Shown here: positions 53,444 through 60,351 of the stretch, piece after piece | Layout of the letters: each line of letters begins with the position of its first letter | How positions within the stretch are numbered: position 1 is the stretch's first letter | NCBI GenBank assembly: GCA_945877255.1 | Contig: CAMCRE010000002.1 | Location: 62,001 to 126,000 of the forward strand | Direction of reading: 5' to 3' | Origin: an uncultured Erysipelotrichaceae bacterium | Lineage (GTDB): Bacteria > Bacillota_I > Bacilli_A > Erysipelotrichales > Erysipelotrichaceae | DNA length: 64,000 nucleotides | Made by a program: the position numbers and the translations under genes | Notes under the pieces: generated by a model | The model's database searches: none | Seen by the model: the letters and a program-made list of their open reading frames with translations, nothing else | What the model was told of the DNA's origin: nothing

Positions 53444-55261
53444 ATGAATAAAAGCTTGAAAAAAGTACTTTTAGGTTCTTTAGTAGCTGCTACAGTATTA
53501 ACTGCTTGTGGAACTAAAGCAAATAAAGAGTTAGTAGTAGATACGATAGAATTTAGTGGTGACTTCTTTACATCACAATTCAGCAGCTCATCTTATGATA
53601 TGGATGTTGTTCACTTAATATCTGGTACAGGAACAATCGCTCAAACATCAGCAGGTAAATTAGTTGTAAACAAAGGTATCGTTGAGAATGACAAAGTTGA
53701 ACTTGTTGATGATGCAGACGGCAACAAAGTTGTAACTTGGAAAATCCGTAAAGACTTAAAATGGAGTACAGGAAAACCAATTACTGCAAAAGATTTTGCG
53801 TTTAGTTTGTTATTCCAAAACTCTAAAGAGTGGAAAGCTGCTGGAGCTTCTGTTAGTCCATCAGAAGAAATTATTGGATTAGTAGATTACTCAAATGGAA
53901 AAGCAGATGCAATCAAAGGAGTTAAACTTGTTGATGATCACACAATTTCATTAACAATTGATAAATCTAAATATCCTTATTTCTATGAATATTCATACTA
54001 TGGTATTGATGCGTTGTCATTAGAAGATATTGGTGAAGGATTGAAAGTAGAATCAGGTGACTTCGGGGTTAAATTAGTAGGAGATGTTGCTGCCGCAGCA
54101 AAAGCAATTAAAGCTAAACAAGTAGATTCTAGAAAACCAACTTCAACATATGGAAAATATGTAATTGACAAGACAAGTGAAACAGAAGTTGTATTTAAAT
54201 TAAACCCTAACTATGTAGGAAACTATGAAGGTGTTAAGCCTACAATTCCAACAATCGTATTAAAAGCAAACAAAAACGAAGAATTACGTTTCCAACGTTT
54301 AAGCCAAGGGGAAGTTGACTATGTGCCATCATTTATTGATGCTAAACAAGTTGCAGAAGCTAAAAAATCTCCAGATAAATTTACATTACATGCATTACCA
54401 CGTAATGGATATGGAGTATTAAACTTCGCAAACGAGTTTGGACCTACTAAAGATGTACATGTTCGTCGTGGAATTGCACACTTAACAAACAGAAGTAAAG
54501 TTATTGCAGATGTATTCGGTGGAGATGGAATTGCGACACACGGTGAATATGCGATTGCACAATGGATGGTAAAAGAAAAAGAAGCAGAGCTTAATGAAAA
54601 ATTAAACAAATATAGCTTTGACGTTGCATTAGCAAATAAAGAATTCGATCAATCAGAATACCGTTTTGAAGCAGATGGTGTAACACCATTTGATGTTTCA
54701 AAAGCGTCAGAAACTTACTTACGTCACAACTCTAAAAAAGAGCCATTAGCAGTTCACCATGTTGGAGGAAGTCAAACAGTTCTTCAATCAATTGAATCTG
54801 GATACAAAGAAAATGCTGCTAAAGTTGGGATGAAATATACAAATGCATTAATAGATTTCAAAGAGTTATTAAAACTAAGAGATTTAACGGCAGCAAATGA
54901 TCCAAAACAAAGCGCTCATATGTTTACATTGGCTAATGGTTTCACAGGTTCAGTGTTTGATCCATATATTTCTTCAATTCACTCAAGAAATATTGGTGAT
55001 CCACTAAGAAACGGAATGCGTGTTAAAGATGCTCAAATCGACAAATTAGCTGAAGAATTAAGAGCAATTGCTCCACAAGATACAGCTGCATTTGCGAATA
55101 AATGGTTAGAATACCAAGTAAGATATAATGAAATTTTACCAGCATTACCATTATACTCTAACTACACATTCGATGCGTTCTCAAATGCGAAAGTTAAAGA
55201 GTCAGGTGCTACAGCAATTAGAAGCTGGTCACAAACAATCGAATACATGAAGTTAAAATAA
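53444..55261 (+). CDS. oppA: Oligopeptide ABC transporter substrate-binding lipoprotein
   Basis: A 605-residue SBP family 5 lipoprotein. The signal sequence LKKVLLGSLVAATVLTACG has a lipobox LTAC with the lipid-bearing Cys at residue 22. Family features are VTWKIRKDLKWSTGKPITAKDFAFSLLF and the C-terminal HMFTLANGFTGSVFDPYISS. It captures peptides outside the membrane and delivers them to OppBC. I chose ATG 53444 after AGGAGGAAAAA; an upstream in-frame start (53411) would put the signal peptide too far in. Length is slightly above the usual ~540. A hairpin separates it from oppB. Confidence 0.92.
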   Translation: MNKSLKKVLLGSLVAATVLTACGTKANKELVVDTIEFSGDFFTSQFSSSSYDMDVVHLISGTGTIAQTSAGKLVVNKGIVENDKVELVDDADGNKVVTWKIRKDLKWSTGKPITAKDFAFSLLFQNSKEWKAAGASVSPSEEIIGLVDYSNGKADAIKGVKLVDDHTISLTIDKSKYPYFYEYSYYGIDALSLEDIGEGLKVESGDFGVKLVGDVAAAAKAIKAKQVDSRKPTSTYGKYVIDKTSETEVVFKLNPNYVGNYEGVKPTIPTIVLKANKNEELRFQRLSQGEVDYVPSFIDAKQVAEAKKSPDKFTLHALPRNGYGVLNFANEFGPTKDVHVRRGIAHLTNRSKVIADVFGGDGIATHGEYAIAQWMVKEKEAELNEKLNKYSFDVALANKEFDQSEYRFEADGVTPFDVSKASETYLRHNSKKEPLAVHHVGGSQTVLQSIESGYKENAAKVGMKYTNALIDFKELLKLRDLTAANDPKQSAHMFTLANGFTGSVFDPYISSIHSRNIGDPLRNGMRVKDAQIDKLAEELRAIAPQDTAAFANKWLEYQVRYNEILPALPLYSNYTFDAFSNAKVKESGATAIRSWSQTIEYMKLK

Positions 55262-55318: not shown

Positions 55319-56290
55319 ATGTTTAAGTATATTATTAAAAGAATTTTTACGCTAATACCGGTGTTCTTTGCGATGTCTATCATTATTTTTGGTATTTCAC
55401 AAATGACACCAGGAAATATGGTGGACATTAAATTAGCACAAAATGCTAGCTTAAAACAAGCCGACAGAGAGATTATGCGTATCGCATTAACTAAAAAATA
55501 TGGATTGGATAAACCTATTCATGAGCGTTATGTAATTTGGTTAAAAAACACGTTTACTGGGGATCTAGGTGAAACAGTAGACGGAAAACCAGTTACACAA
55601 GCTTTAGCAGAGCCAATGAAAAATACGATTATTTTAAATCTTTTTGTGATCTTAATTTCGTTAACGATTTCTATTATCGTGGGAATTAAGTCGGCTGTGA
55701 AAAAAGGGAAGCTCTATGATCGATTCTGGCAAGTATTCTCGTTAGTTGGAACAAGTATGCCAACGTTCTTTATCGGTATTATTTTAATTTTCATTGTAGC
55801 AATCAATTTAAAATTATTACCAACAGGTGGAATGCCTTCAGTAAGATTAGAAGGTTTATCTTATTTTGTTGAGTTGTTACGTCATATGATTTTACCAATT
55901 ATTACATTAACGATTGGTAGTTTAGCGGGAACAGTGCGTTACGTTAGAAATGCCATGGTAGATGCATTAAATCAAGATTACATTAGAACAGCACGTTCAA
56001 AAGGATTATCTGAAAAAGTAGTAGTTTATTCGCATGCGTTTAAAAACGCTTTAATTCCAGTTGTAACTATTGTAATCGGATCAATTGGTGGATTATTTGC
56101 GGGTTCATCTATTACAGAAACAGTATTTAGTTGGAATGGATTAGGTTCAAGACTAGTATCCGCAATTAATGCACGTGATTGGGGAATTGTAATGGCAGTT
56201 AATTTATTTACTGCTGCAATTTACTTATTAACGAATTTTATCACGGATATCGCTTATGCACTAGTTGATCCGCGTGTAAAATTATCTTAA
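55319..56290 (+). CDS. oppB: Peptide ABC transporter permease, OppB type
   Basis: A 323-residue permease with six helices. It opens MFKYIIKRIFTLIPVFFAMSIIIFGI and has the PGN segment after the first helix and the EAA-loop YIRTARSKGLSEKVVVYSHAFKNALIPV (coupling helix for the ATPase), ending DIAYALVDPRVKLS. Start ATG 55319 follows AAAGGGG by about 5 nt. It lacks any large extracellular insert, in contrast to OppC. Confidence 0.93.
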   Translation: MFKYIIKRIFTLIPVFFAMSIIIFGISQMTPGNMVDIKLAQNASLKQADREIMRIALTKKYGLDKPIHERYVIWLKNTFTGDLGETVDGKPVTQALAEPMKNTIILNLFVILISLTISIIVGIKSAVKKGKLYDRFWQVFSLVGTSMPTFFIGIILIFIVAINLKLLPTGGMPSVRLEGLSYFVELLRHMILPIITLTIGSLAGTVRYVRNAMVDALNQDYIRTARSKGLSEKVVVYSHAFKNALIPVVTIVIGSIGGLFAGSSITETVFSWNGLGSRLVSAINARDWGIVMAVNLFTAAIYLLTNFITDIAYALVDPRVKLS

Positions 56291-56306: not shown

Positions 56307-58100
56307 ATGAAAAAGAAAACGATTTTTGGGAAGTTATTCTCTAAAAAAGAAGTAGTAATTAAAGAAGTTGATAACAGTAAAATAATTACTCCAGGACAAG
56401 CTGTTTTCAACAATTTCAAATCTAATAAATTAGCTGTTACTGGACTATTCATGTTTATTTTAGTTGTGGCTACAGTGTTTATTGGGTCGGCATTGCTTAA
56501 ATTTGATGAAAACTACGTTCAAACAACGTTACAAAATATTGCACCAGGTGCAAATTATTTAAAAGCACCAGCTTCATTAAACGGTAACGTTAAAAAAATT
56601 GTATCGGGAACATCGTTTAGTTATGCAATTGATAAGTCTAATAAATTGCATTACTGGGGAGTAGATGTTGATGGTGCATTGAAAGTACCTGAAAAATTAA
56701 AAAGTAAATCATTTAGTGATATCGCTGTAAGTGATAATCACGTTGTTGCTGTTGATAGTAATGGTGAATTACATCTGTGGGGAAATAACAGTGGTCGCCA
56801 ATTAGAACTTGATGAAGTTACAGAAAGAAAAGTATCAACAGGGCAAGTTAAAAAAGTAATTGCAGGTCGATTATATTCTGGTGTGGTAATGGAAAACAAA
56901 CAAATTCACGTTTGGGGGACAAACTCATTAGAACAAATCGCACTTAAAACAGACTGGAAAACACGTGTTGTAGATGCAGTTGCATTACCAGAAAACATTA
57001 TTTTACTTTTAGATGATGGTAGTGTTAAAGTAACAGGTATCAACATTTTAAGTTCAAGTTTACCAGAATCACTTGCTAACGGAGAGAAAAAAGTTGTTAA
57101 AATTGCGGGGGCGTACTTAAATGGTCTTGCATTAACAGCAGATAATGAATTAATTTCGTGGGGTGGAAGTCATCGTGGTTTAGAAATCACAAAACAATAC
57201 GATAAAAAAATTAAAGATATTGTAGGAGGTTATGCTGTATTCCATATATTATTTGAAGATGGTACAGTAGAAACATTAGGGACAACAGCTGTATACGGTG
57301 AACAATTATCTGTAAAAGAAAACGTTGATACAATATATGCTGGTTATTTCCAAAATTATGCAGTTATGAAAGATAATACAATCAAACCTTGGGGATTAAA
57401 AGGATTTCTACTAGGGAGTGATGAATTTGGGCGTGATGTATTTGTGAGGTTAGTACACGGTGGAAAAACATCATTACTTGTAGGAATTGTGGCGGTATTA
57501 ATTTCAACGTTTATCGGATTATTAATTGGAACAATTGCTGGGTTCGTCGGTGGAGTAGTAGATAATGTCTTAATGCGTTTTTCTGAAATTGTTACTTCTA
57601 TTCCGTTCTTACCATTATTAATTACATTATCATCAATTATAGGAACGAGACTAACACAAAATCAACGTATGTACTTAGTAATGGTTATTATTGGGGTATT
57701 AAGTTGGGTAGGATTAGCACGTTTAGTTCGTGGTCAAATTTTAGTCGAAAGAGAAAAAGATTTCGTGTTAGCAGCACGTGCATTAGGAATTCGTCAATAT
57801 AAAATTATTTTAAAACATATTTTACCAAGTGTATTAAGTATTGCGATTGTGAATATGTCGTTAAGCTACGGGGGAATGATGTTAACAGAAGCAGGACTGT
57901 CATTCTTAGGATTTGGGGTTATGCCACCAACACCTACATGGGGTAACATGTTGAATGGTGCACAAAAAGCCGAAGTAATTCAATTCTACTGGTGGAGATG
58001 GGTATTCCCAGCATTAGCAGTATTTATTACAGTATTAGCAGTAAACTTAGCTGGAGATGGTATTAGAGATGCCGTTGATCCAAAAGCAAATGAGAAATAG
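56307..58100 (+). CDS. oppC: Peptide ABC transporter permease, OppC type, with an RCC1-like beta-propeller insert
   Basis: A 597-residue permease, about twice the usual ~300. Residues 1-85 are the OppC N-terminus with helix 1 (about 42-66); residues ~362-597 resume with the family motif LLGSDEFGRDVFVRL (369-383), four or five helices, the EAA loop DFVLAARALGIRQYKIILKHILPS and the GDGIRDAVDPK end. Between them (about 95-362) are seven repeats of ~38 residues, each ending in a W-G or related turn (LHYWG, LHLWG, IHVWG, LISWG, IKPWG), the RCC1/BLIP-II pattern of a seven-bladed propeller. It lies in the first extracytoplasmic loop, facing OppA. The join to the GSDEFGRD motif is direct. It is in frame and undisrupted. 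Confidence 0.92.
   Translation: MKKKTIFGKLFSKKEVVIKEVDNSKIITPGQAVFNNFKSNKLAVTGLFMFILVVATVFIGSALLKFDENYVQTTLQNIAPGANYLKAPASLNGNVKKIVSGTSFSYAIDKSNKLHYWGVDVDGALKVPEKLKSKSFSDIAVSDNHVVAVDSNGELHLWGNNSGRQLELDEVTERKVSTGQVKKVIAGRLYSGVVMENKQIHVWGTNSLEQIALKTDWKTRVVDAVALPENIILLLDDGSVKVTGINILSSSLPESLANGEKKVVKIAGAYLNGLALTADNELISWGGSHRGLEITKQYDKKIKDIVGGYAVFHILFEDGTVETLGTTAVYGEQLSVKENVDTIYAGYFQNYAVMKDNTIKPWGLKGFLLGSDEFGRDVFVRLVHGGKTSLLVGIVAVLISTFIGLLIGTIAGFVGGVVDNVLMRFSEIVTSIPFLPLLITLSSIIGTRLTQNQRMYLVMVIIGVLSWVGLARLVRGQILVEREKDFVLAARALGIRQYKIILKHILPSVLSIAIVNMSLSYGGMMLTEAGLSFLGFGVMPPTPTWGNMLNGAQKAEVIQFYWWRWVFPALAVFITVLAVNLAGDGIRDAVDPKANEK
56589..57392 (+). other. RCC1-like seven-repeat propeller domain inside oppC
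   Basis: Repeat starts are at about residues 95 (VKKIVSG), 135 (SDIAVSD), 180 (VKKVIAG), 220 (VDAVALP), 260 (VVKIAGA), 300 (IKDIVGG) and 340 (DTIYAGY). Repeats 4 and 6 have the W-G turn degraded to VTG and TLG. The last repeat ends in WGLKGFLLG, running into the permease. Confidence 0.82.
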
Positions 58101-58109
58101 GAGGTATTT

Positions 58110-59051
58110 ATGAGTAAGTTAGTTGAAATTAAAAATTTACACACATACTTCGAAACGAAACGTGGTTTAGTTAAAGCTGTTCGTGGCGTAAGTTTCTCAA
58201 TTGAAGCAGGAAAAACATTAGGGGTAGTTGGTGAATCTGGTTCAGGAAAATCACAAACTGCAATGTCAATACTACAATTATTTGAGTCTAATCAAAAAGT
58301 TTACGATGGAGAAATTATTTTTGAAGGAAAAGACTTAACGAAATTAAGTGAAGTTGAATTAAGAAAAATTAGAGGAAATGATATTTCAGTTATTTTCCAA
58401 GAACCAATGACTTCATTAAACCCAGTATTTAAAATCAGCAAACAAATTGCTGAAGTATTAATGCTACACCAAGGGTTATCTGAAAAAGATGCTGAAGAAA
58501 AAGCGTTAGAAATGCTTAAATTAGTTAGAATTTCTAACCCAGAAAAAATATTACATTCTTATCCATTCCAATTATCAGGTGGTATGCGTCAACGTGTTAT
58601 GATTGCGATGGCGTTAGCTTGTAAACCTAAATTGTTAATTGCGGATGAGCCGACAACTGCACTTGATGTAACGATTCAAGCTCAAATTTTAAAATTAATG
58701 AATGAATTGAAAGATGAAATGGGAACATCAATTATGTTTATTACGCACGATTTAGGGGTAATTAATCAAATGGCAGATGATATTGTTGTAATGTATAAAG
58801 GTCAAGTATTAGAAAAAGCACCAAGAGAATTAATATTTGAAAACAACAAATATTTACATCCATATACATTTGAATTGTTAAAAGCGATTCCTAGAATTTC
58901 CACAAAGAAAAATCCAGCTAAAGATATTTTAGATCATGATCCATTAGTATTGCCAGAAGGTTATACATATGATGAAGTGGATGGTGTAGAAAGTGAATTA
59001 ATTGAAATTGAACCAAATCACTTTGTAAGATGCTATAAGAAAGGAGTTTAA
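58110..59051 (+). CDS. oppD: Peptide ABC transporter ATPase, OppD type
   Basis: A 313-residue ABC ATPase: Walker [11 protein letters not shown] (about 39-48), Q-loop [12 protein letters not shown], signature [15 protein letters not shown], Walker [13 protein letters not shown] and H-loop FITHDLGV, then an oligopeptide-permease C-terminal domain ending in [13 protein letters not shown]. It pairs with OppF below the OppBC permease. It follows oppC by 9 bp with SD GGAGG, and its length is normal. Confidence 0.95.
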
Positions 59052-59052
59052 A

Positions 59053-60351
59053 ATGAGTAAATTATTGATTAAAACTGAAGATTTAAAACAATATTTCGTA
59101 ATCGATAAAAAAGGGAAATTAATTAAAACTCCTGTTTATTTAAAAGCAAACAATGGAATTAATTTAGAAATATATGAAAATGAAACGTTTGGATTAGTAG
59201 GTGAATCTGGGTGTGGAAAATCTACATTAGGAAGAGTGATTTTGCAATTGTATCCACAGGAGCGTGGAAATACGATTTATTATGGTAGAACGGTGTTTGA
59301 ATTAAATCCTAAATACTTAAAAAAATATTTAGATAATGCTTTTGAAATTTATGCGAGAGTAGAAGCAGAAATTCAAAAAGCTATCAATAAAAATAGCCAG
59401 TCTTTATTAGATAAAGCACATCGTGAATATCGTGCAGTCGCAAGAATTGCAGGTGCCTTATTATTACATCCAAATAAAGAACAAGCTAAAGCTGCGTTAA
59501 AAGAAGAATATCATGCAGGTATTTCAAATGATTTAGTAGCACTTGAAAAAGCACAAGCAATAGTTAAAAAATTAGAATCTGATGTAGCTAATCACGAAAA
59601 ATTTGCAGAATTAAATAGTTTTAAAGATTATGGTGTGGATTTAACGCTACTCACAAAAGAAGAAATGCGTCAATTGAGAAGAGACTTACAAATTATTTTC
59701 CAAGATCCATATTCTTCTTTAGATCCTAAAATGACAGTAGGTCAAATTATTTCAGAAGCTTTAGTTGAACACGGTTTATTTAAAGATAAATCAAAAGAAT
59801 TAGAAGAGTATGTTTTAGAAACAATGGAAAAATGTGGTTTAGATCGTAGTTTTATTCACCGTTATCCACATCAATTTTCTGGTGGGCAACGCCAAAGAAT
59901 TGGAATTGCGAGAGCATTAGCTTTAAAACCAAAGTTTATTGTGTGTGATGAAAGTGTTTCGGCATTAGACGTATCTATTCAAGCTCAAATTTTAAAATTA
60001 TTACAAGAACTTAAAGAAAAAGAAAAATTGACTTATTTATTTATTTCACATGATTTAAGTGTTATTAATAATATTTGTGATCGTGTAGGTGTAATGTATT
60101 TTGGTAATATGGTGGAATTAGCAGAAAGTGATGATATATTTGACAATCCTGTGCATCCATATACTAAAATGTTGTTGAGTGCAATACCTTCTATGGATGA
60201 AAGAAAAGAAGTGTCGATTGCTGTATTTGATTCTACATATTCTATTGAAAATGCAGATCGTAGTAAAGATACAATTTGCGGGGATGAAATACAATTAGTA
60301 CGTAAACCAATGAAAGAAGTTGAACCTAATCACTTCGTTGCTGAATTTTAA
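59053..60351 (+). CDS. oppF: Peptide ABC transporter ATPase, OppF type, with a helical insert
   Basis: A 432-residue ATPase against ~310 in the family. Walker [10 protein letters not shown] (50-58) is followed, after RGNTIYYG, by about 120 mainly helical, charged residues (about 80-200, with [19 protein letters not shown] and [24 protein letters not shown]) before [26 protein letters not shown] (Q-loop Gln217). The signature [15 protein letters not shown] (~276), Walker [13 protein letters not shown] and H-loop FISHDLSV are intact, so it should be active. It follows oppD by 1 bp; its TAATG overlaps the next small gene. Confidence 0.94.

Follow-up and report, generated by a model that had tools for sequence, protein, structure and literature searches.

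The window analysed here is a stretch of 64,000 nucleotides from an uncultured Erysipelotrichaceae bacterium. It contains a series of five genes for a putative peptide importer:

53444–55261 (+): oppA, substrate-binding lipoprotein with a signal peptide ending LTAC-G (SBP_bac_5, 8.6e-35; signal sequence)
55319–56290 (+): oppB, ordinary second permease subunit (BPD_transp_1, 8.1e-39; sequence)
56307–58100 (+): oppC, 597 aa, with an inserted propeller of predicted RCC1/BLIP-II type (open reading frame list, Pfam, AlphaFold2)
58110–59051 (+): oppD, ATPase (Pfam)
59053–60351 (+): oppF, ATPase with a 115-residue insert (59305–59649) between the Walker A region and the Q-loop (Pfam; sequence)

The preliminary description of this DNA had proposed a full oppABCDF operon with a clean oppC frame, and this is what is found: the series oppA-B-C-D-F is unbroken and on one strand, and the oppC frame starts with ATG, has the ribosome-binding site 'aaaggag' just upstream and runs uninterrupted to its stop. 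The genome from which the window comes has 1.26 Mb and is 98% complete. A search of it with the full-length protein found no other OppC, and the OppB and OppC of the window have the two best scores among the PF00528 matches of that genome. The propeller-bearing pump is the only peptide-importing Opp-type pair detected there. A comparison of the window with a library of defence systems gave no match.

A propeller within the OppC permease

By its defining domains and its predicted fold, the 597-aa protein is assigned to OppC, and its role in peptide transport is predicted. Pfam places OppC_N at residues 28–79 (3.7e-7; 30.4 bits against a curated cut-off of 23.9) and BPD_transp_1 at residues 404–594 (1.1e-29; 103.9 bits against 26.4), and the GTDxxGRD-type motif is present as GSDEFGRD at residues 370–377. 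The protein also matches RCC1_2 (54.5 bits; cut-off 22), RCC1 (21.9 bits; cut-off 21.7) and the RCC1-like WD40_RLD (residues 89–289, 2.6e-24), the last with 86.7 bits, which is below its curated cut-off of 150. Thus the RCC1 and BPD_transp_1 profiles, which had been named at the outset as the ones to search with, both score above their curated cut-offs. The best NCBIfam model is Opp4C (NF045476; 3e-93), with 312.1 bits in two pieces; the equivalog cut-off of 350 is missed because the insert splits the match, and the protein is therefore a variant rather than a standard Opp4C. The importer as a whole appears to be Opp4-like and of the oligopeptide ABC type. The parts of the protein are as follows:

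56427–56495 (+): transmembrane helix 1 (TM1), residues 41–63 (model helix; hydropathy peak)
56535–56588 (+): entry stem N77-P80-G81 and 'xxPxxL' linker, residues 77–94 (conservation; alignment to unfused OppCs)
56589–56660 (+): blade 1, residues 95–118 (model strands)
56712–56783 (+): blade 2, residues 136–159 (model strands)
56847–56918 (+): blade 3, residues 181–204 (model strands)
56967–57038 (+): blade 4, residues 221–244, the most diverged blade (model; blade comparison)
57093–57164 (+): blade 5, residues 263–286 (model strands)
57210–57281 (+): blade 6, residues 302–325 (model strands)
57324–57395 (+): blade 7, residues 340–363, with the family signature F348-Q-N-Y351 (conservation in 67 proteins)
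57390–57437 (+): exit junction WG-x-x-G-[FY]-x-[LF]-G-[ST]-D-x-x-GRD, residues 362–377 (RCC1 turn into OppC GTDxxGRD)
57402–58091 (+): OppC transmembrane domain, residues 366–595, with the coupling (EAA-type) helix near 468–495 (BPD_transp_1, 1.1e-29; fold matches E. coli 8z21_B and M. tuberculosis OppC)

Seven repeats of about 38 residues with W-G turns had been described in the insert, between residues 95 and 362. The number of repeats stands, as do the limits (95–363 in the model). The spacing and the turns need correction: blade starts are 38–45 residues apart, and the W-G turn is present in blades 1, 2, 3, 5 and 7 but absent from blade 4 (T-G) and blade 6 (L-G). When placed in register, the seven 24-residue cores have a mean pairwise BLOSUM62 score of +22.4, as against −22.8 ± 2.4 for residue shuffles.

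Structure prediction of the protein alone leads to the same picture. The first AlphaFold2 model, based on an alignment of 67 fused proteins, has seven three-stranded blades at residues 95–363 with a local pLDDT of mostly 85–95; over its full length, the mean pLDDT is 86.6 and the pTM 0.82. A second model, based on a Clostridia-only alignment headed by another fused protein (L083), has the same seven units, with BLIP-II as its top match. The pTM of 0.82 fits a fixed arrangement of the propeller and the transmembrane domain, though that of the second model is 0.71. A Foldseek search of the PDB put BLIP-II (1jtd_B) first, with an E-value of 9e-17 and a TM-score of around 0.82–0.83 by its length over 283 columns, followed by E. 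coli OppC (8z21_B, E 1.5e-15), M. tuberculosis OppC, UVR8 and RCC1. With both alignments, the seven units are predicted to close as a BLIP-II-like ring, and neither a failure to close nor a cytoplasmic placement was seen. Sequence and predicted fold thus agree on an insert of the RCC1/BLIP-II type, predicted to be a closed ring of seven blades.

The site of insertion can be read from the unfused relatives, which are around 300–340 aa long and have a short loop where the propeller would be, in keeping with the earlier statement that an ordinary OppC has around 300 residues and a short loop here. After TM1, these relatives have 'N-x-x-(A/P)-P-S-x-H-W-LGTDxxGRD', whereas the fused proteins have 'N-x-x-P-G ... 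propeller ... WG-x-x-G-[FY]-x-[LF]-GTDxxGRD'; the propeller thus stands in place of a few residues between TM1 and TM2. The entry stem, which aligns with the N-x-x-P-S ahead of LGTD in unfused OppCs, is well conserved in the fused proteins (P80 in 67/67, N77 in 60/67 and G81 in 53/67), and in the exit junction W362, G363, G366, G370, D372, G375 and R376 are each present in all 67. In the first model, DSSP bridges at 81 and 367/371 indicate that the two ends of the propeller probably adjoin, as expected of a ring inserted into a loop, and the entry and exit strands probably meet at a narrow neck. The RCC1 motif ends in 'WGxNxxGQLG', and one may speculate that the exit junction was born where this motif met 'LGTD'.

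As for the side of the membrane, residues 1–40 contain 9 K/R and 3 D/E, so that the N-terminus is positive and, by inference, cytoplasmic. DppC has six transmembrane helices, with a cytoplasmic coupling helix between TM4 and TM5 (PMC12136057). The homologous topology, together with the positive N-terminal residues, would place the TM1-TM2 loop and its propeller outside the membrane; the extracellular position proposed in the preliminary description is therefore the one expected from the six-helix topology of OppC/DppC.

Distribution and history of the fused gene

A scan of one genome per species (84,980 species), in which the first part of the exit junction served as the pattern, resulted in 326 stretches, 301 of which encode a relative of the propeller and junction. 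Among the best 80 of these 301 relatives, all 80 carry the propeller and the transmembrane domain in one frame, the frames ranging from 552 aa (L047, cut by the end of its contig) to 670 aa. The carriers include cultured Anaerococcus, Erysipelothrix tonsillarum, E. inopinata, E. urinaevulpis and Dielma fastidiosa, as well as many Clostridia metagenome-assembled genomes, and in an evenly drawn sample a strong match (E <= 1e-30) was found in 16 of 392 genomes of the phylum. The fused oppC is accompanied by oppA, oppB, oppD and oppF in nearly all of those of the 80 loci that have enough flank; in Erysipelothrix, the order of oppD and oppF is swapped.

All seven blades are present in each of the 67 aligned fused proteins. 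Six blades have their closing glycine in every protein, and blade 4 has it in 61 of the 67. The signature of blade 7 (Y351 in 97% of the proteins, N350 in 79%) is almost never seen at the equivalent positions of other blades. A blade is 38–46% identical to its own counterpart in other proteins and only 19–33% identical to other blades, which argues for an old ring and against recent amplification. In a tree of the transmembrane domain built without the propeller, one change, with a branch support of 94, separates 50 fused from 17 unfused rows. This fits a single origin of the propeller fusion, although all the unfused rows belong to the order of the window and a broader sample might require further changes. 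On the evidence of these sequences, the propeller-bearing OppC is an old type of permease, present in hundreds of Bacillota genomes beyond that of the window.

Several related arrangements were encountered. Three fused OppCs have open frames of 789, 760 and 1149 aa (L128, L129 and L130) with a further insert inside the propeller, which in L130 is rich in coiled-coil-like sequence. In other OppCs, of 528 and 583 aa (L015 and L016; also L155 and L156), there is an unrelated insert of about 200–260 aa with no Pfam match; this insert, too, lies between TM1 and GTDxxGRD, and the slot has thus been filled at least twice. In G019, G025, G030, G031 and G033, open frames that match permeases weakly and are about 500 aa long adjoin OppC; they are possibly OppBs with an insert. 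Three proteins of about 600 aa in the same family (L134, L138 and L139) have an N-terminal helix-turn-helix, one transmembrane helix, outer RCC1-type repeats and further repeats, and resemble membrane sensors. Finally, the 115-residue insert of the window's OppF is probably helical, and the OppF open frame is of about 450–630 aa in most fused operons. This insert was considered as a co-marker of the propeller and rejected, because two unfused operons (L153 and L154; OppF of 505 and 509 aa) carry it as well, so that it is not specific to propeller operons.

Possible roles of the propeller

RCC1-type propellers, above all BLIP-II, are protein binders. The position of the propeller, by itself, favours as the leading explanation a rigid wall or platform that would position OppA and help to close the outward-facing cavity, a proposal to be given somewhat less than an even chance. 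In the DppABCDF importer of E. coli, the scoop between TM1 and TM2 of DppB enters the DppA cleft and contributes to sealing the cavity that faces outwards (PMC12136057). The window's OppB has a TM1-TM2 region that aligns with this scoop region, and the propeller loop of OppC is its pseudo-symmetric counterpart. In the maltose importer, MalF-P2 is a large extracytoplasmic domain of one permease subunit, which contacts and holds MalE (PMC3150292 and works cited there). The propeller might similarly stand at the docking face for OppA, on the side formed by OppC and across from the OppB scoop. There it would hold OppA in place, much as MalF-P2 does with MalE, and help to seal the cavity during peptide handover.

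In favour of such a platform, the invariant P80 and exit junction in the 67 proteins indicate a conserved position; the retention of the opp neighbours and of all seven blades, the differences between blades and the single origin on the tree also count for it. In seven loci, mostly of Anaerococcus (L037, L045, L051, L055, L061, L064 and L065), one fused permease has two or three OppA genes as neighbours, and these loci are counted on the same side. Against it, the blade surfaces show little conservation, most of the invariant residues look structural, and the window's OppA, which is of ordinary size, has no evident extra domain.

Two indirect tests, one of distance co-variation and one of the lipid anchor with its control, gave no specific support for an OppA platform. 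The distances of the propeller and OppA co-vary with a raw correlation of 0.82 and a partial correlation of 0.21 ± 0.08; that of the cytoplasmic OppD is 0.30–0.32 and exceeds that of OppA, so the co-variation is no evidence of contact. In the second case, the signal peptide is ordinary and cleavable in some 11–12 of 77 OppAs from fused operons, as if the propeller were to retain a free, anchorless OppA. This idea was dropped because, in the control, a lipobox is likewise missing from nearly all the other SBP_bac_5 and SBP_bac_1 proteins read from the same genomes. In one Clostridia lineage (L069, L072, L075, L081, L096 and L101; genomes G555–G560), most of the ABC substrate-binding proteins examined have cleavable signal peptides rather than lipoboxes.

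The weak conservation of the blade surfaces can be read differently. Since RCC1-type propellers bind very diverse partners, and the blade surfaces are free to vary between family members, the propeller could be the receptor for another extracellular partner and so bring the importer to the site of peptide release. Candidates would be a regulatory protein, a protease on the cell surface or a polymer of the cell wall. The same fold also occurs in the helix-turn-helix protein that resembles a membrane sensor. However, no recurring partner gene was found beyond the opp genes in neighbourhoods searched for opp homologues only, and the invariant stem sets the propeller beside the OppA site, which makes this receptor rather unlikely.

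Propellers often bind ligands at their central pore, and the carrier here is a peptide importer, the one Opp-type pair found in the window's genome. The propeller might therefore be a peptide binder in its own right and act as an additional substrate site or as a selectivity filter above the channel. Such binding is improbable in view of the conservation pattern: no conserved polar set that spans the blades stood out, and positions outside the structural core are variable. A purely structural or protective decoration, which would take no direct part in transport but stabilise the OppBC heterodimer or shield the site within the cell-wall space, is to be judged just as sceptically. The slot does tolerate extra material, as in the 528- and 583-aa OppCs with their unrelated insert and in the 760–1149-aa frames with further inserts in the propeller; on the other hand, all seven blades have long been retained, with blade-specific signatures such as the FQNY of blade 7. 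Lastly, an artefact, with two genes joined through a frame error or a chimeric assembly, is refuted by independent genomes with the same fusion, which occurs in every one of the 80 loci read (the best 80 of 301), isolates included, and in the complete chromosome of E. inopinata (L102).

In the usual picture, type I ABC importers depend on short loops together with a separate binding protein. A broader proposal, which is tentative and less likely than not, is that of an undescribed, widespread class of peptide importer, in which a protein-binding propeller fixed in the permease selects or holds the binding proteins or recruits a surface partner by means of an evolvable surface. In Bacillota associated with humans and animals, a whole family has a stable propeller built into one permease subunit and has kept it over a long divergence. 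This provides a natural case for the question of how cells that lack an outer membrane choose and retain their binding proteins; moreover, the propeller is a domain that could be expressed alone for binding tests.

Relation to known transporters and propellers

The preliminary description knew of no transporter of this design, and no description of an RCC1-type permease was found in the openly licensed literature. Automatic annotation may well list the combination of OppC with an RCC1 domain.

The solved OppC and DppC structures (E. coli 8z21 and 8z1v; M. tuberculosis 8j5q) share with the window's protein the OppC_N helix, GTDxxGRD, BPD_transp_1 and the opp operon, with a fold match over about 225 residues at 32–40% identity. 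They are, however, of around 290–300 aa, and the window's OppC has some 270 residues more, the propeller, between TM1 and GTDxxGRD. BLIP-II and the RCC1-like propellers (1jtd, 3qi0, UVR8 and RCC1) likewise have seven RCC1-type blades with W-G turns, but BLIP-II is a free, secreted inhibitor, whereas the ring of the window is inserted in the loop of a membrane permease.

MalF-P2 is not a propeller of the RCC1 type, and both the loop that holds it and the importer family are different. The likeness to it is one of analogy, not homology. In MalFGK2-E, it is a large extracytoplasmic loop domain (residues 91–271) that contacts the binding protein (PMC3150292). The DppB scoop is also an extracytoplasmic element between TM1 and TM2 at the face of the binding protein (PMC12136057); it differs in being a helical hairpin of about 30 residues in the B subunit, and the window's OppB keeps the corresponding region.
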